Program-made: the position numbers and the translations under genes | Assembly (NCBI GenBank): GCA_903828955.1 | Contig: CAIKOA010000002.1 | Coordinates: 1 to 34,494 of the forward strand | Length of the DNA stretch: 34,494 nucleotides | DNA from: an uncultured Microcaldota archaeon | GTDB taxonomy: Archaea > Micrarchaeota > Micrarchaeia > Anstonellales > Bilamarchaeaceae | Direction of reading: 5' to 3' | The notes under the pieces: generated by a model | Told to the model about the DNA's origin: nothing | Seen by the model: the letters and a program-made list of their open reading frames with translations, nothing else | The model's database searches: none | Shown: positions 12,309 through 25,918 of the stretch, piece after piece | Numbering within the stretch: position 1 is the first letter of the stretch | Layout of the letters: each line of letters opens with the position of its first letter

Positions 12309-12450
12309 GTGAACCTCCCGGCCGTTACTAGGCAGGGCTTCCTGCTTCATTGAGGATGCTTGCGCTTTTTATGGAAAGCATAGAGGCTTCCTCTTCACAG
12401 GCTTGACATTCCGCAGTTCCTGCGGTAGCTCTTCTGAGTATGTTAATTGC
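12309..12450 (-). ncRNA. candidate omega-RNA (reRNA) at the tnpB 3' end
   Basis: In TnpB systems the guide scaffold overlaps the 3' part of tnpB and ends at the element's right end, with the guide taken from flanking DNA. Here that would cover the last codons of tnpB, the hairpin at 12332-12345 and the GGGAGGTTCAC end. The guide would start at 12308 and run toward 12290. The 5' limit is arbitrary. Confidence 0.35.
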
Positions 12451-13476
12451 TGCGTTAAGGTCGCGGTGCATTGATGCCCCGCAGGCACAGGAGTGCCACC
12501 TTTCCGCAAGCGTTTTCTTTTTCACTGAGCCGCACTGGCTACATTCTCGGGTAGTTCCGGCAGTGTTCACAAGCACTACTTTGCAACCAGCTTCTTCCGC
12601 TTTGTATGCAAGCATGCGCGCAAACTCTGCCCAGCCACAGTCCAATATTGATTTTGCAAGGAAACTTCTGGACATCTTACCAGTTTCCAGGTTTTCCATC
12701 GCAACCAGGGAATATGAATCAGCTAGCATCCGGCTGGCTTTGTGTAGGAAATCCTTTCTTTTATTTACGAGTTTTTCATAGGAAATGGCTAAACAGTGTT
12801 TCGCTTTAAAACGATTTTTGCTGCCTTTTTTCTTTTTGGAAAGTAGCCTATTCGCACATTTTAGCTTATGCTCGGCTTTTTTGAGATGACTGGGGTTCTT
12901 GACAACATTCCCATCGCTCAGATATGCAAAGTGTTCTATTCCCAAGTCAATCCCAACTAGGGGTTTTTCTTCTCTTTTTTCCAAGGTTTTCTCTGTTTCA
13001 GAAGTAAATATCGCAAACCATTTCTCGGAAGAATATTTCTTTATAGTGAGGGTTTTTATTTTGCCTTCGATTTCCCTGTGCTTCCGGATGTTTATGCTGC
13101 TGATTCCCGAGAGTTGCAGCTTGTTATTAAGAGTGAACCCGAACTGCGGATAGGTAAACGATTTTATTCTTTCTATTGGCTTGAACCTAGGGAAACCGGC
13201 CTTTAAGCCGGCTTTCTTTCTGGACTGCATCCCTCTAATGGATTTGTAGAGGCGGTCTGCAACGTTTTGGGCGGTTTGCGAAAACAGGAGTGTTCCTTTA
13301 GTTTTTGAGTATAGCTCCTGCCTTATTGGGGCCCTGCCGGTTTTTTTATATCGTTCTTTTACATATTCAAGGAGAGAATTCCAGACGTTCTTGCACTCAA
13401 CAAGATATTTGTTGAGCTCCTTTTCCTGGATTTTTGATGGGTATAACCGGTATTCCCAGGACCGTAATAACTTCAT
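12328..13476 (-). CDS. tnpB: RNA-guided endonuclease TnpB (IS605 OrfB)
   Basis: A 382-aa TnpB of normal length with all catalytic parts. The N-terminal OrfB helix-turn-helix region (LRSWEYRLYPSK) is followed by the wedge and REC regions. The RuvC-like nuclease residues are D177 (VGIDLGIEHFA), E261 (AMENLETGKMSRS) and D339 (MHRDLNAAINIL). A C4 zinc finger is formed by C312, C315, C330 and C332. TnpB uses an omega-RNA to cut DNA next to a short target-adjacent motif, which helps the element persist. The TATA box TTTATAAAG at 13505-13497 lies about 28 bp before ATG 13476, partly from host DNA. GC content is lower than in the neighbours, as expected for recent transfer. Confidence 0.95.
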   Translation of the reverse strand: MKLLRSWEYRLYPSKIQEKELNKYLVECKNVWNSLLEYVKERYKKTGRAPIRQELYSKTKGTLLFSQTAQNVADRLYKSIRGMQSRKKAGLKAGFPRFKPIERIKSFTYPQFGFTLNNKLQLSGISSINIRKHREIEGKIKTLTIKKYSSEKWFAIFTSETEKTLEKREEKPLVGIDLGIEHFAYLSDGNVVKNPSHLKKAEHKLKCANRLLSKKKKGSKNRFKAKHCLAISYEKLVNKRKDFLHKASRMLADSYSLVAMENLETGKMSRSFLAKSILDCGWAEFARMLAYKAEEAGCKVVLVNTAGTTRECSQCGSVKKKTLAERWHSCACGASMHRDLNAAINILRRATAGTAECQACEEEASMLSIKSASILNEAGSPA

Positions 13477-19599: not shown

Positions 19600-22149
19600 C
19601 TACATCTTCATTTCCTTTATCATGTCCGCGAATTCTCCCCAGGTCTGGAGAAGGACGGAACCCGCCTGCACTTCGAGCTTGAGCATTGTTGCCTCGGGGT
19701 TTCCCGTTGAAATGTATTCGTAGAAGGAATCCTTCTCGCCTTCATCCTCGAACACAACGATGTTCAATCCCTTGTTTATTGAAGAGAGGATGCCTGGGAC
19801 GATGCGGCCCGGCTCATCATAGAGGTGGACATACATGTCCTGCCCGATTACGGTTATCCGCGAATCATAGCCTGGCTCTTTCCCGAGCGGGCTGAACGGA
19901 ATCGCGTTGTTTATGCAGATATCCCTCAGTTTGCGGAAGAACGCGAGCTGCTTCATGCCCCTTCCTGTCTCCTTTTCCCATGAAGAAATCCCGTAATATT
20001 CAAGCTCCTTCTTCACAAAGCCCATCCCTTCCAGCCTTGAGAGCACGTACTCGAGGTTATAGTCGCTGATGAATATGGGCTTCCCCTCATAGAGCATTCC
20101 CTTGAATCCCCCCTTCAGTTCTCCAAGCTTGAGAGGGGTGTTTTTCCATTTGTAGAGTTCGTTTATCTTCTGGAAAATGCCCAGCAGCACTTCCTTCTTC
20201 ATCGGTATCTTGCGGGTGGATTGCGGCGGGAAGTCCGGAATGTCAAGGCCGTACATCGCCACCCCCTGCTTTGCAAAGAGAACGCCGACTATCAATGCCA
20301 CAAAAGCGATTCCCACGGACCCGAGGAAGAATGGCTCGGTGAATATGCTCTTCATCGATGGCTTGCTAACGGCAACATCGGCAGAATAAGTTCCAAGCTT
20401 GAACGTGAATTTATTCTTCCCTGAGTCGAGCGGGGCGCCATTCACCTTTGCGGCTTCCACCGTGACTGACTGGGAACTGGTGAAAGTTTTTGACTTTGCC
20501 TGGTTCCCGTTTATGTAGTAGCTTCCGCTCAGCGGAATCGGCTGCCCGTCAAGAAGGAATTTGAATGTGTAGATGTCTTCCCCGTAGTTTGGCTTTACGG
20601 AGCTGATTGAGAGTTCGCCTACGCGCATGTATGAGCGCGCATATTGCTTTTCTTGGGCATCAACAATCTCCAGGATGTAGTCCCCCCCCGTGAGCCCAAA
20701 ATTATATGCAAAGGTGGGCTGTGAATTGAGCGCAACCTTGCTTGTGGATATCGATTGGCGGTCCACTTCCCCGGTTGAATTCTTCACGGAAAGGAACAGC
20801 CTTTCCTCTCCCCCCTCCTCCCTCAAATCTACGACAATGTCCATCTGGGTGGGCTCGACTGCGGCCGGGGGGATGCTGTGCCCGAGCGTGTAGATGTCTC
20901 CATTGGTGCTCTTCTGGATGTAAGAAACAATGAGGAAGCCCTTTTTGCTCTCGTTGTCGAATGCGAGTATTCTTGCATATTTCTGGTCCCCCTCAAACGT
21001 GGTGGTGAAGAACTCTACGGTGGAGCCTGCTGCGCCGAGCGGCACCATTTCTGCGTTTCCTGCAATTGAATTAAGCCAGGGCATCGTGAGTATCAATGCA
21101 TAAACATCACTTGCCGCATCGGTCCCGTTGCCCCAGCCCCCGTCCAGCGTCTGCGGGAAGAAGAGCATCGTCCCGCCTCCGTAGCTGAATGAACCTATGC
21201 AACCCTGGATGGGAACCCCCCCGCCAACTGAGTAAAGCGGGCTCCTCATCGTTATATTCGTGCATGAAATGGAGCTGGTTGGCTCAAACGAAATCTTCAT
21301 TTTTCCAAGGGACGCGGTGTTGGCCCCGACAACCGCGCCCTGTTTGCTGTACATCTTGTCAAAGGGCTGGCCGATGTAGATCACGGTTACGCCCCTGGAA
21401 AGAAGGTCGTCCAGCTTTGAGCCCTTGTCCGCCAGCATCTGCTCGGGGATGTATCCGCTTGGAACAATCACGAGCGATTGCGATGGGATGGATTTGAGGT
21501 CGTCAAAGCCTATCTCGTTAACCGTCATATGGTAGCCTGAAAGCCTCCTCTCAAGCGAAGCGGCGAACTCCGGGTAGTTCTCTGCCTGGTAGCGGCTGCT
21601 CCTTAGAATGAAAACGGAGGATGGAACCGGAGTGTTGTAAATGTCCACATAGACCGGAACCGCTTCCGCAGTTCCATTGACTGCCATCTGCAGGTACGCG
21701 GTATGGTAGGGCTTTCTCCAGTCAACTGATTCGCTCGCCGTGAGTATGTCCTGCTTTATTATGTTCCCTGAAAAGGACTGCAATTCCTGCGGGTTGAGGA
21801 TTTGGTAAGTTGGGGAAATGGCTGACTGCATGAAGATGGTCATGGTTGCTAGGAGCAGGACCACGAGCAACACTGCGCCGCCGGCCTTCTGCACCAGTCC
21901 GGATTCAAGTATCGAGGGCTTTCTTGGGGGCGGGGCCTCCTTTTCGTGCCCGGGAATTCCTTCCTCTTCGATCTGAACCTGGGCTGCCGCGCCCTTTGGC
22001 TTCAGGAAAGAGAGTATGGAGTCTTTCACTGTGTCGGCAAGCTGCTTTTCCACCTTGCGGTACTTTGATTCGTAGGAATACCTTTTCCGCACCTCAAAGC
22101 GGAAGGATTGTTTTTTTATCTTTATGTCGGGGGCCGCCATTCTTCTCAC
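19600..22149 (-). CDS. large two-TM surface protein of the VirB4-like operon
   Basis: An 849-aa protein I do not recognise. A basic cytoplasmic N-terminus (1-88) leads to TM1 (about 90-110). A large outer-face region (about 111-604) has beta-rich domains, including a SLVIVPSGYIP stretch with a Rossmann-like look and later Ig-like segments (ELSISSVKPNYGEDIYTFKF). TM2 spans about 606-628. The cytoplasmic tail (about 632-849) seems to hold a winged-helix-like part (KKELEYYGISSWEKETG) and an alpha/beta end. It is the last gene of the operon. GTG 22149 overlaps the previous stop as GTGA with GGAG 8 nt before it; ATG 22140 is the alternative. It may be the pore or adhesin partner of the ATPase, which is inference. 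Confidence 0.85.
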   Translation of the reverse strand: MRRMAAPDIKIKKQSFRFEVRKRYSYESKYRKVEKQLADTVKDSILSFLKPKGAAAQVQIEEEGIPGHEKEAPPPRKPSILESGLVQKAGGAVLLVVLLLATMTIFMQSAISPTYQILNPQELQSFSGNIIKQDILTASESVDWRKPYHTAYLQMAVNGTAEAVPVYVDIYNTPVPSSVFILRSSRYQAENYPEFAASLERRLSGYHMTVNEIGFDDLKSIPSQSLVIVPSGYIPEQMLADKGSKLDDLLSRGVTVIYIGQPFDKMYSKQGAVVGANTASLGKMKISFEPTSSISCTNITMRSPLYSVGGGVPIQGCIGSFSYGGGTMLFFPQTLDGGWGNGTDAASDVYALILTMPWLNSIAGNAEMVPLGAAGSTVEFFTTTFEGDQKYARILAFDNESKKGFLIVSYIQKSTNGDIYTLGHSIPPAAVEPTQMDIVVDLREEGGEERLFLSVKNSTGEVDRQSISTSKVALNSQPTFAYNFGLTGGDYILEIVDAQEKQYARSYMRVGELSISSVKPNYGEDIYTFKFLLDGQPIPLSGSYYINGNQAKSKTFTSSQSVTVEAAKVNGAPLDSGKNKFTFKLGTYSADVAVSKPSMKSIFTEPFFLGSVGIAFVALIVGVLFAKQGVAMYGLDIPDFPPQSTRKIPMKKEVLLGIFQKINELYKWKNTPLKLGELKGGFKGMLYEGKPIFISDYNLEYVLSRLEGMGFVKKELEYYGISSWEKETGRGMKQLAFFRKLRDICINNAIPFSPLGKEPGYDSRITVIGQDMYVHLYDEPGRIVPGILSSINKGLNIVVFEDEGEKDSFYEYISTGNPEATMLKLEVQAGSVLLQTWGEFADMIKEMKM

Positions 22150-22874
22150 TGCACCTGCTCCAGGTAGCCCTGGCGCACAAGCTTGTCGAGGGCTCCTTCA
22201 ACCCTTGCTTCCGGAACTAGGTTGTGCTTTGCGAATTCCGGGATGTTTATGGTGCCGTTATGGTCCATTATCCATTCCTGTATCCTGGAAATCAGCACCC
22301 CTTCGGAAACCGCCCCGTGCAGCTTGTCGAAGCTGATTTTCAATTCATCGTTTTCGTTCTTCATCTCGTAGTTTTCCTTGCTCAGGCTCTTCACCTGCGC
22401 CTTGTAGAGGAGCGAGGACCTCCGCAGGTTCTCAACCTCCCTCTTCAAATCATCATAATCCTTGTAGAGTTTCTTATAGTCCGCATTCGCATAGTCGTCC
22501 AGCTGGCGCATCGTTTCCTCCATGAGCTGGTAGACGACACTGTTCTCGATTTCGTAATAAGGGTCCACCAAGGTGAGCATGTTGAGGAGATAGCGGAGCA
22601 AGTCGAGCTTTCTCTTTGTGGGAGCGATTGTAGTGGGTATCGAATATACCACTTCGATCTCGCTTTTCTTGAACTTCATCATGGAGAAGAGGTAGGGGGT
22701 CTTGTCTATGCTCCTGCTTTCTACGTAAGCGATGCTGACCCCTTCTTTTTCCTGCGCAACTTTGAGGAATGAAATCGAGCGGAGCGCCTTTGCAACGTCT
22801 GCAAAGGTTCCCTTTAATTTCACCCTTATGCGGAATCCGTCTATTTTTGGAGGGGAGAGCGATTCTTCTGGCAT
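22146..22874 (-). CDS. coiled-coil protein with C-terminal winged helix (VirB4-like operon)
   Basis: A 242-aa soluble protein of no recognised family. The N-terminal alpha/beta region (about 8-85) contains FRIRVKLKGTFADVAKALRSI. A helical middle is followed by a coiled coil (about 130-185). Residues about 190-242 look like a winged helix (ISRIQEWIMDHNGTINIPEFA and ARVEGALDKLVRQGYLEQ). It lies 4 nt after the upstream gene and overlaps the large surface protein. A cytoplasmic adaptor that binds DNA or the ATPase would fit. Confidence 0.85.
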   Translation of the reverse strand: MPEESLSPPKIDGFRIRVKLKGTFADVAKALRSISFLKVAQEKEGVSIAYVESRSIDKTPYLFSMMKFKKSEIEVVYSIPTTIAPTKRKLDLLRYLLNMLTLVDPYYEIENSVVYQLMEETMRQLDDYANADYKKLYKDYDDLKREVENLRRSSLLYKAQVKSLSKENYEMKNENDELKISFDKLHGAVSEGVLISRIQEWIMDHNGTINIPEFAKHNLVPEARVEGALDKLVRQGYLEQVQ

Positions 22875-22878
22875 TCAA

Positions 22879-23430
22879 TCACTTCTTTCTTGCAGCCTTC
22901 TGGGCAGGCTTTGGAGCATGCTTCGGGGCTGCTTTTGGCGCGGGTTTTTGCGCGGGTTTTGGAGCATGCCTGGGACTCAGCCTCTTTGCGATTTCCTGCG
23001 GGGTTTCCCTCTTCTTCCCTTCCTGCGGGGAAAGGGCGCCTGCAAGCGTTGGCTTTGCGCCTGCCCATTCCCTGGTTTCAAGCCCGGGAGTGTAGCTCAG
23101 GATTGCGAGCGCCGCAATCATGATGCCGAGCACGAGCGCAAAGAAAAGGTTCACGAAGCTGAACGGCGCGCCCAGCAGGAGCGGGGCGAGGAATAATATT
23201 GCGACCACTATCACTGCGGCGGTTGCGTGAAGGACCGCCATCTTCTCGAAGTTCTGCCTCTTCTTCCTGTAGGTTTCAAGGTCGGCATCGCAAACCATGA
23301 GCACGTTGTTCTGGAGTGTCCCGGTTTTCTGCTTCATCTTCTTTATGAAGCGTATCACTGCATCTTCCTTTATCGGGTTCCCGTTTTCTATTTCCTTCTT
23401 GCAGACAATGCAAACGTTTGCCATTTTCAT
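22879..23430 (-). CDS. Cys-motif two-TM protein with Lys/Ala/Pro tail (VirB4-like operon)
   Basis: A 183-aa membrane protein. A CxxC pair (C7, C10) and C47 in the N-terminal 60 residues suggest a small metal-binding knuckle. Two TM segments lie at about 66-84 and 90-113. The C-terminal 40 residues are a repeat-like tail of KPAPKAAPKHAPKP type that is strongly basic. GGAGG is 9 nt before ATG 23430, and the gene starts 4 nt after the ATPase stop. The function is unknown. The tail could bind nucleic acid or the cell membrane. Confidence 0.82.
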   Translation of the reverse strand: MKMANVCIVCKKEIENGNPIKEDAVIRFIKKMKQKTGTLQNNVLMVCDADLETYRKKRQNFEKMAVLHATAAVIVVAILFLAPLLLGAPFSFVNLFFALVLGIMIAALAILSYTPGLETREWAGAKPTLAGALSPQEGKKRETPQEIAKRLSPRHAPKPAQKPAPKAAPKHAPKPAQKAARKK

Positions 23431-23434
23431 CCCC

Positions 23435-25009
23435 CTATTCCTCCAGTATAACCTGGGTTATGTCGCGGTCCAGGATATCCGCCTTTCTTTTATCGCTCAT
23501 CGTGAATATGTTGATGATGATCGTATCCTCAATCCCGACTTCCTTCAGGAACATCGTGAGGTTAGAGCGGTCCACCCCGAACCTTTCCAGCAGGATGATG
23601 AACGAAACCACGTCCAGGTGCCTGTTCTTCTGGTCGAAGAGGCGGACAACCTCCTCAATCCTTGCCTCGGAGAGGCCGAATTCAAGCAGCCTTCTCTTCA
23701 AATTATCCTTCTGGAATGAAACGCTTCTTGCCACATCAATCGACTCCCTTTGCTCCTTTGAGAGGGCCTTCCCAAGGTCCAGGAAGAACTCTCGCAGGGG
23801 CTCTTCCCCTTCTATCTTTTCTACAAGGAACGTGGATGGGTAGGGTGTTGCGCCTGAGAAAGACATGTTCACTGCGCAGGAACCTACCCCTACTTTTGAG
23901 ATTTCCTCCCTCATGAAATCGCTGAAGTTCAGCGACCCTTGGAGGTAATCGAGGAATTTTTCGAACTTAACTTTCAGTATGAACGTTGTGCCCACGTTTG
24001 AAAAAATTGCTTCCGCAATGTCGGTTGGGTTCTGGGACGCAACTATGAGCGCGAAGTTGTATTTTCTTCCTTCGCGGATGATCATTACCGCGTCGCTGGT
24101 TTCCTCTTTTGCGATTTTCCATGCTTCGTCCAGCACCACGATGAGGCGCAGGCCCTTTGTCTTTGCCCAACCAGTGACACGCATGTGCTCCTCGATGAAT
24201 TGGAGCATTGCAAGGGCGCCGAGCGCCCTGAATTTCTCATCCGGAAGCCCTGAAAGGTCCAGGGCGACTAAGCCGGATTCCGTAAGTTCATCCAGGCTTA
24301 CCGTGCTTTGCTGCGCGAAGAAGTCCTCCCCTGATTTTGTGAATTGCTTGAGGCGGTAAATTGCATTTTCGAGTTCTGCCGGGAATTCATAAGTGCCCAT
24401 CGAGGCCCGCTCTTCCAGGAGTTTTACTACGTCTTTGAGTGTTGGCGGCTGCAATGGCCGCCCTAGTTCATCCCTCTGCTCGCGCGAATCCATCTTGAAC
24501 TTGTTGTTCGTGTATGCCTTTTCGATTCCCTGTTCCGTGAGCCTTTTTTGTTCCGGGTACTGGTCGATATCCGTGAGGATTCCGACTGTGCGCATTACCT
24601 GTTTTATCCGATCATACGGCTTCATGCCTCCTAGGTCCAGGAGGTTCATGTATGAGCCTTTTCCGAGCGAGATTACCTTCCCCCCGGTCATGCGCACCCA
24701 GTCCTTGTATTCCCCTGCCCAGTCGATAATGAGCGCGTTGGAATTCCAGACGAACGAGGCGCGGCTCAGGAACGTTTTAATGAAATATGATTTGCCTGAA
24801 CCTGAAATCCCCACGATTGCGATGTGTGGGTTCGTAACGTCCTGGTAGGTCCAGTAGAACGGGACCTGGAGCATCTTTGTCCTTCCCACGTAAATTGAAT
24901 TGGACGGGTCCTTGCAAATCATGCTCATGGGCGGTTCTGGCGGGTGCACAAGGATGTTCCTGCTTGACAGGTCCTTGTTCGGAAGCTTGTTGATTGATAA
25001 TCTTCCCAT
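23435..25009 (-). CDS. VirB4/HerA-type P-loop ATPase (C-terminal VirB4-like)
   Basis: A 524-aa ATPase of the HerA/FtsK superfamily, closest in pattern to VirB4/TraC. Walker A is GISGSGKS (67-74), Walker B is LIVVLDEAW (289-297), then REGRKYNFALIVASQNPTD with the conserved Gln, and SNVGTTFILK. These are the hallmarks of conjugation and DNA-transport motors that form hexamers. A helical C-terminal domain (about 410-524) is extra and unrecognised. The protein lacks the VirB4 N-terminal domain, which seems to be encoded by the gene just upstream. The ATPase should face the cytoplasm. Archaeal relatives include CedB of the crenarchaeal DNA-import system. The substrate is not shown here. Confidence 0.93.
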   Translation of the reverse strand: MGRLSINKLPNKDLSSRNILVHPPEPPMSMICKDPSNSIYVGRTKMLQVPFYWTYQDVTNPHIAIVGISGSGKSYFIKTFLSRASFVWNSNALIIDWAGEYKDWVRMTGGKVISLGKGSYMNLLDLGGMKPYDRIKQVMRTVGILTDIDQYPEQKRLTEQGIEKAYTNNKFKMDSREQRDELGRPLQPPTLKDVVKLLEERASMGTYEFPAELENAIYRLKQFTKSGEDFFAQQSTVSLDELTESGLVALDLSGLPDEKFRALGALAMLQFIEEHMRVTGWAKTKGLRLIVVLDEAWKIAKEETSDAVMIIREGRKYNFALIVASQNPTDIAEAIFSNVGTTFILKVKFEKFLDYLQGSLNFSDFMREEISKVGVGSCAVNMSFSGATPYPSTFLVEKIEGEEPLREFFLDLGKALSKEQRESIDVARSVSFQKDNLKRRLLEFGLSEARIEEVVRLFDQKNRHLDVVSFIILLERFGVDRSNLTMFLKEVGIEDTIIINIFTMSDKRKADILDRDITQVILEE

Positions 25010-25018
25010 GGAATTTCC

Positions 25019-25834
25019 TCACAATGTGCTCTCTTCAAGCTCTCTCGGGCCCGAGGGGAAAGCGTATTCCCATTCAAAGCACTTCTTCATTTCCTCTGCG
25101 GTAAGCTGTTCCACCTGCACGTTAAGAGAGTTCTGGAGCGTCACTTTCAGCTCCCGGACCTGTGCGCGAAGGGTTGCAACTGCCGCATCCTTTGAAACTC
25201 CGGAAGCGGTAGTCATTGCATATGCGAGAACGCCCATTGGGCGGACTCCTTTTATGAGGCGTTGCAGCTGGTTGTCCCACATCGCGATTTCCCTCTCGTA
25301 TTTATCCACTTTGAGCACGTCGGGCTCTGCCTTGTCCTTTTCCCGTGATAGGCGCAATTGCGCTTCCGCCTTCCTTGTTTCAATTAACTTTCTCTTCTCT
25401 CCCACGTCCTCTGCATAGAGGAGGTAGGCAATCTTCACTACATAACGCATGTTTGAGATTGCGCGCTCGAAGTACTGGTTGTATGCGATGTTCTGCTCCT
25501 GGGAGCGCTCGGTTGCGGATTCGAAAATCCTTATCCCTAAAAATGCGGATGCGTAGTATTCCTCCCCGACCTTCTTTATTATTACGTCCTGCGTAGATGG
25601 AGTCTCGTAGCCGGTGTCGGTGAGCATTACTATTCTTGCGCGTTCAGTGATTAGCGGGAGCGCAAGGTAGCCGTATTTGAAGAAAATTACCGCGCCTAAG
25701 CAGCCGAGCCCTGCGAAAAGGCCCCCGAAAAGCCCGAGGAAACAATTTGCGCTTGAGGCAAATGCCATAATCGCGCCAAGGGCGCAAAGGCCGATGGACA
25801 TCATCATTATCTGTTTAGACTGGAACTGGGGCAT
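25019..25834 (-). CDS. two-TM protein with VirB4 N-terminal-like domain
   Basis: A 271-aa first gene of the operon. A PrgI-like hairpin of two TM helices (about 8-28 and 30-58) opens it. The remaining part resembles the N-terminal domain of VirB4: an AFLGIRIFE strand, a charged coiled stretch (RKAEAQLRLSREKDKAEPD), a RLIKGVRPMGVLAYAMTT strand, and a closing QVRELKVTLQNSLNVQVEQL helix-strand. The resemblance is by eye. Together with the next gene it would make up a split VirB4. ATG 25834 has GGTG about 8 nt upstream. A TATA box at 25865-25880 drives the operon. Confidence 0.85.
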   Translation of the reverse strand: MPQFQSKQIMMMSIGLCALGAIMAFASSANCFLGLFGGLFAGLGCLGAVIFFKYGYLALPLITERARIVMLTDTGYETPSTQDVIIKKVGEEYYASAFLGIRIFESATERSQEQNIAYNQYFERAISNMRYVVKIAYLLYAEDVGEKRKLIETRKAEAQLRLSREKDKAEPDVLKVDKYEREIAMWDNQLQRLIKGVRPMGVLAYAMTTASGVSKDAAVATLRAQVRELKVTLQNSLNVQVEQLTAEEMKKCFEWEYAFPSGPRELEESTL

Positions 25835-25864: not shown

Positions 25865-25880
25865 GGTTTATAAATATATA
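25865..25880 (-). promoter_or_regulatory. promoter of the five-gene VirB4-like operon
   Basis: The minus strand has TATATATTTATAAACC about 38 bp before ATG 25834. It is located after the purB stop codon, so the operon has its own promoter even though purB lies upstream on the same strand. Confidence 0.5.
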
Positions 25881-25918
25881 TAGAAGGAAAAGAAGGATAA
25901 GTGAGGAAAGGTGCAATT

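Follow-up and report, generated by a model that had tools for sequence, protein, structure and literature searches.

The stretch of DNA analysed here (34,494 nt, hereafter the window) is the entire contig C2 of a 1.22-Mb genome that is 95.6% complete and whose nearest public records belong to Candidatus Micrarchaeota. Its minus strand carries, from 25834 to 19600, five co-directional open reading frames (ORFs), g1 to g5, which probably encode the motor module (cytoplasmic and membrane parts) of a type IV secretion system (T4SS)-like machine, chromosomal and near-universal in Micrarchaeota. The features of the operon are as follows:

25867..25882, minus strand: TATA-type promoter element of the operon, TATATTTATAAA, kept in genus mates.
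25019..25834, minus strand: g1, 271 amino acids (aa); two transmembrane helices in a VirB3/PrgI-like position and a probable VirB4 N-terminal-type domain, in a gene separate from the ATPase.
23435..25009, minus strand: g2, 524 aa; VirB4/CedB/CedD-type ATPase, from Pfam and NCBIfam profiles and motifs.
22879..23430, minus strand: g3, 183 aa; N-terminal CxxC zinc-ribbon-like segment, hydrophobic membrane segment(s) and a basic Ala/Pro/Lys tail, as read from the sequence.
22146..22874, minus strand: g4, 242 aa; coiled coil with a winged-helix-like C-terminal end, from weak profile matches.
19600..22149, minus strand: g5, 849 aa; in the AlphaFold model, a cytosolic N-tail, a transmembrane helix (83-109), an extracellular part (125-596), a second transmembrane helix (606-625) and a cytosolic C-terminal domain.

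Calculated from the ORF coordinates, the successive gaps from g1-g2 to g4-g5 are +9, +4, +4 and -4 nt, and the TATA-like element lies about 45-30 nt 5' of the g1 ATG, with TTTATAAA at equal distance from the g1 start in three genus mates. The original prediction of five co-directional genes, spaced by -4 to about +9 nt behind a TATA box of their own, is thereby borne out, as is its count of three membrane proteins and one winged helix-turn-helix (wHTH)-coiled-coil protein: hydropathy places two transmembrane segments in g1, two in g5, one clear segment (two likely) in g3 and none in g4, the protein with the weak wHTH and coiled-coil matches.

The one VirB4-type ATPase claimed for the operon is g2, which matches DUF87 (E = 3e-17) and AAA_10 (E = 2e-12), and in which the Walker A (G..G.GKS) and Walker B (DEAW) motifs are conserved across 41 orthologues. 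The named models that fit it best are CedD, CedB and VirB4 CD1110/TraC, all scoring above the HerA models and well under their equivalog cut-offs (72 bits for CedB, with a cut-off of 700, and 77 bits for CedD, with a cut-off of 600); CedB, CedD and CD1110 VirB4 likewise lead the HerA models for p2, a paralogous ATPase encoded elsewhere in the genome. In a tree of the ATPases all G copies fall into one clade (98/99), with close P copies adjacent, divergent P copies outside, and the VirB4 references and HerA further out; the VirB4-type ATPases are separated from the genome's own HerA (branch 92/82). By these profile and tree comparisons g2 is assigned to the VirB4 superfamily, and not to HerA. 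One-to-one orthology of g2 and p2 with CedB/CedD was rejected, being inconsistent across members. A separate observation is that the C-terminal helical domain of g2, of ~100 aa, is encoded as its own gene in L035, L036, L040-L044, L069, L146, L140 and L152.

The partners of g2 had been described as unrecognised, which no longer holds for g1. Its AlphaFold model (predicted local distance difference test score, pLDDT, 79.8, from a 63-sequence alignment) begins with two long helices, behind which comes an alpha/beta domain, and when it is compared with the PDB by Foldseek the five best hits are all TrwK/VirB4 from the R388 T4SS (probability 0.98-1.00, E 4e-3 to 9e-3), after which the next-best hit falls to E 0.095; a profile search of the PDB with the g1 alignment gave nothing useful. 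Because of these top five hits and the drop that follows them, g1 and g2 together resemble one VirB4 divided over two genes, with g1, on a fold match of modest TM-score, as the putative N-terminal half and membrane anchor.

A search of the same genome with g2 uncovers, on contig C19 (L092), a paralogous operon that encodes an 81-aa pilin-like protein with two transmembrane segments, a 318-aa polytopic protein, p1 (a paralogue of g1), p2 (an ATPase 46% identical to g2), p4 (a paralogue of g4) and a 49-aa protein that resembles, by eye, the g5 N-tail. Members of the pilin family match T4SS_pilin PF18895 (7/12) and TrbC/VirB2 PF04956 (5/12), with a best E of ~1e-5, and the pilin of one relative exceeds the curated Pfam cut-off; the pilin alignment profile found nothing useful in the PDB. 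A pilin profile recovers five such genes from the genome, one in the sister operon and four in tandem on C18, the latter with signal-peptide-like starts (by eye), and the VirB2-like pilin that is looked for in a T4SS is present here, outside the window operon. The cores of the four tandem pilins (L178:13709-15471, minus strand) are near-identical and their ends differ, perhaps through gene conversion or variation.

The corresponding profile of the polytopic protein recovers 13 VirB6-like genes from the genome: one in the C19 operon, a six-gene array on C18 and a six-gene array on C32. Its match to an ABC transporter in the PDB was set aside as most likely noise from transmembrane composition, and comparison of the pilin and VirB6-like profiles was weak (probability 10%), the CedA1-CedA relation reported for Ced not being confirmed here. 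The C18 array overlaps by 4 nt a gene for a 1571-aa lipoprotein-like protein (L169:1667-6382, minus strand), which is followed in line by one for a 1384-aa Cys-rich surface-type protein (L179:7487-11641, minus strand). Contig C14 encodes a fourth DUF87 ATPase (667 aa; L094:4046-6049, minus strand), over the cut-off for TrwB_AAD_bind, that could be a coupling-protein stand-in.

In relatives, pilin and VirB6-like genes are joined to the motor operon itself. In families f12, f13 and f17 (G053, G086, G089, G061) four or five VirB6-like genes, immediately 5' of g1, and two tandem g1 copies precede the g-operon; one to three pilin genes stand immediately upstream of g1 in L045, L068 and L071; and family f21 (L151) has one operon that contains a pilin, a VirB6-like gene and g1-type (E 2e-49), g2-type (E 1e-136) and g5-like (E 2e-22) genes. 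Across 127 genomes, each at least 88% complete, VirB6-like genes accompany a strong g2-type match in 117, both are missing from 9, and one (G106) has VirB6-like genes alone. Families f16, f18, f20, f24 and part of f21 are without both, and their lifestyle might be informative. The earlier statement that the operon has no pilin therefore stands inside the window and fails for the wider system. Because of the VirB4-N fold of g1 and the pilin and VirB6-like genes that join the operon in relatives, the machine does match the T4SS/Ced/Ted kind, in an unusual, dispersed and duplicated version; the claim that it was unmatched to any named system falls, and its cargo may, as proposed there, be DNA or protein.

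Profile hidden Markov models recover the order g1-g2-g3-g4-g5 in 43 of the 44 Micrarchaeota loci that could accommodate the whole set, the sole exception being L049, in which g5 is inverted. Because the same order recurs so widely, the arrangement is not due to chance, and the partners are conserved beside the ATPase, as the original prediction needed them to be. A search with g2 finds a match in 43/43 genomes of the family (in a few of them a fragment or only the paralogue) and in 235/245 genomes of the phylum sample, mostly strong. Identity to g2 is 83-86% within the genus, for the most part 67-78% within the family and ~51-69% further out, dropping with taxonomic distance as vertical descent would predict; the best reading of these sequence comparisons is of a machine near-universal in Micrarchaeota, chromosomal and vertically inherited.

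The remaining three genes are less readily matched. The CxxC segment of g3 occurs in many members, the Cys not being retained in all relatives, and g3 sits between g2 and g4 in relatives too; p4, the paralogue of g4, adjoins the second ATPase in L092. In the g5 model (pLDDT 84.3) an ectodomain of 470 residues, with beta-sandwich and alpha/beta folds, is predicted between the two transmembrane helices, and the cytosolic C-terminus is structured; Foldseek matches are to generic Ig/MG-type domains at low TM-score, and the g5 alignment profile found nothing useful in the PDB. The neighbours of the operon that were tested are mostly housekeeping genes, namely adenylosuccinate lyase (purB), phosphoribosyl pyrophosphate synthetase (prs), GMP synthase, histidyl-tRNA synthetase (HisRS, hisS) and ScpB, together with a glycosyltransferase. 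Elsewhere in the window, at 12328-13476 (minus strand), lies a TnpB/IS605 OrfB-type gene with OrfB and Cas12f-like TNB domains.

Within the proposed machine g1 would anchor the motor in the membrane and provide the VirB4 N-terminal half, and g2 would be its ATP-burning half; g3 and g4 are probably adaptor or cargo-handling parts, and g5 an envelope- or surface-layer-crossing scaffold or contact surface. The motor would work with membrane proteins of the VirB6-like family and with VirB2-like pilins, whose genes lie elsewhere in this genome, presumably assembled as one machine, and with, or next to, the second paralogous motor (pilin, VirB6-like, p1, p2, p4). Several points weigh against this picture. 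The VirB6-like family matches no VirB6/CedA entry in Pfam, NCBIfam or the PDB, and for that reason is likened to VirB6 by position, size and topology only; the match of g1 to VirB4 is modest (TM-score 0.39, E 4e-3); the genomes in the co-occurrence count are related and the absences clustered in few families, making the count supporting rather than independent evidence; and the two motors may have separate functions. Gene content and order, conservation, the ATPase family, the VirB2-type pilin profile matches and the co-occurrence are shown directly, and the g1 fold is backed by a model; VirB6 identity, joint assembly, the roles of g3-g5, substrate and direction are inferred.

DNA import and protein secretion or contact represent two uses of one T4SS-like machine, and of these a host-directed secretion or contact apparatus is preferred, at roughly even chances. 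The Patescibacteria T4SS, which offers the strongest parallel, is chromosomal, mostly without relaxase, and has a separate VirB4-N-like protein (TrsD) and pilin arrays (PMC12102498), a mix common to both systems, as are tandem arrangement of the pilins, a VirB3/PrgI-like transmembrane part and a setting in reduced-genome, partner-dependent cells. It differs in that the micrarchaeal machine is archaeal, fuses the transmembrane part to VirB4-N in one gene, and has two motors, six-gene VirB6-like arrays and g5. Large surface proteins in line with the VirB6-like array are in keeping with such a use, and the nanohaloarchaeal report of VirB4, with its giant-protein/VirB4 pairs (PMC10266531), is the closest DPANN precedent found. 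Host dependence of a Micrarchaeota relative, with pili-like contacts for such cells, is reported in the paper on Mia14, an ARMAN relative, which also describes type IV pili and speculates on conjugative elements; the passages retrieved from it by key terms name no VirB4-type machine (PMC5498576). On the other side, the system has been lost in some Micrarchaeota families, and no effector or secretion signal was found, none having been searched for.

A Ced/Ted-type importer, which would acquire DNA from kin or from a neighbouring cell, either for recombinational repair or to supply nucleotides, is a less likely use. Ced and Ted of other archaea combine a pilin, a polytopic protein and VirB4-type ATPases (PMC9905601), including the CedB/CedD pair (PMC11868833) that the two paralogous ATPases recall, and CedB and CedD are the closest of the named NCBIfam models for g2 and p2. 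Ced of Sulfolobales (CedA, CedA1, CedB, CedD) is also alike in its VirB2-like pilin, in the polytopic membrane protein that adjoins its motor and in being chromosomal with no relaxase, which the present genome lacks as well. Ted of Thermoproteales (TedA, TedB, TedC), likened by description, has the same kind of gene set, namely pilin, VirB6 (here VirB6-like) and VirB4, and the starts of the micrarchaeal array pilins, signal-peptide-like by eye, recall TedC. However, the micrarchaeal ATPase falls far short of the CedB/CedD cut-offs, and the preference for these models is inconsistent among g2 orthologues. The N-terminal half of the motor is a separate gene, unlike in Ced, and the motor modules are duplicated, unlike in Ted; g3, g4 and a phylum-wide core further set the system apart from Ced, and nothing in Ced/Ted, as the cited papers describe them, corresponds to the 13 VirB6-like and five pilin-like genes, to the giant surface proteins or to g5.

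A decayed or integrated conjugative element is very improbable. The core parts do belong to the conjugation family, but neither relaxase (PF03432) nor VirD4 (PF02534) was found in the 95.6% complete genome, upholding the original view of a VirB4-family motor with membrane partners that is not an ordinary conjugation locus; plasmid searches gave distant VirB4/TraC only and no VirB6-like match, and a mobile element was rejected in view of the housekeeping neighbours (purB, prs and hisS among them), the phylum-wide presence and an identity that tracks taxonomy. A membrane-anchored HerA-like DNA-repair or segregation motor is slightly more improbable still: it shares with g2 the HerA/VirB4 superfamily domain DUF87, but the genuine HerA and NurA lie on C32 and C9, apart from each other and from g2, which scores higher with VirB4/Ced models and whose partners are VirB4-N, pilin and VirB6-like, so that plain HerA, the outcome that would have undone the prediction, was rejected. 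With no relaxase or VirD4 found, and with HerA and NurA elsewhere, the operon is therefore taken to encode the motor module of a T4SS-like machine that has been domesticated. Duplicated VirB6 paralogues and scattered loci are also features of the Rickettsiales vir homolog T4SS, likened here by description, which differs in being a bacterial diderm system.

As the motor module of a T4SS-like machine, the operon would belong, on the best reading of these comparisons, to an archaeal counterpart of the Patescibacteria T4SS and Ced/Ted, whose most likely use would be to pass macromolecules, on contact, between micrarchaeon and partner cell, a role that has also been proposed for the T4SS of Patescibacteria. 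The fuller picture, of a phylum-wide machine with two paralogous split-VirB4 motors and arrays of VirB6-like channel proteins and variable-ended pilins, exchanging macromolecules with hosts as an archaeal twin of the Patescibacteria epibiont T4SS, is put forward tentatively, at a little short of even chances. Searches of the open-access literature (preprints excluded), broader ones on DPANN and T4SS included, turned up no description of a machine of this kind from Micrarchaeota, and the present findings would extend T4SS-derived machines to a phylum where none was found described. It is an open question how the small-genome archaea of DPANN draw upon host cells, and this machine offers a concrete, testable candidate apparatus, with a parallel in Patescibacteria, in one strain of which T4SS genes were essential to epibiotic growth (PMC12102498). 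The machine to which the five genes would belong is thus a strong candidate for the means by which these cells exchange DNA or protein, in either direction, with a neighbour.
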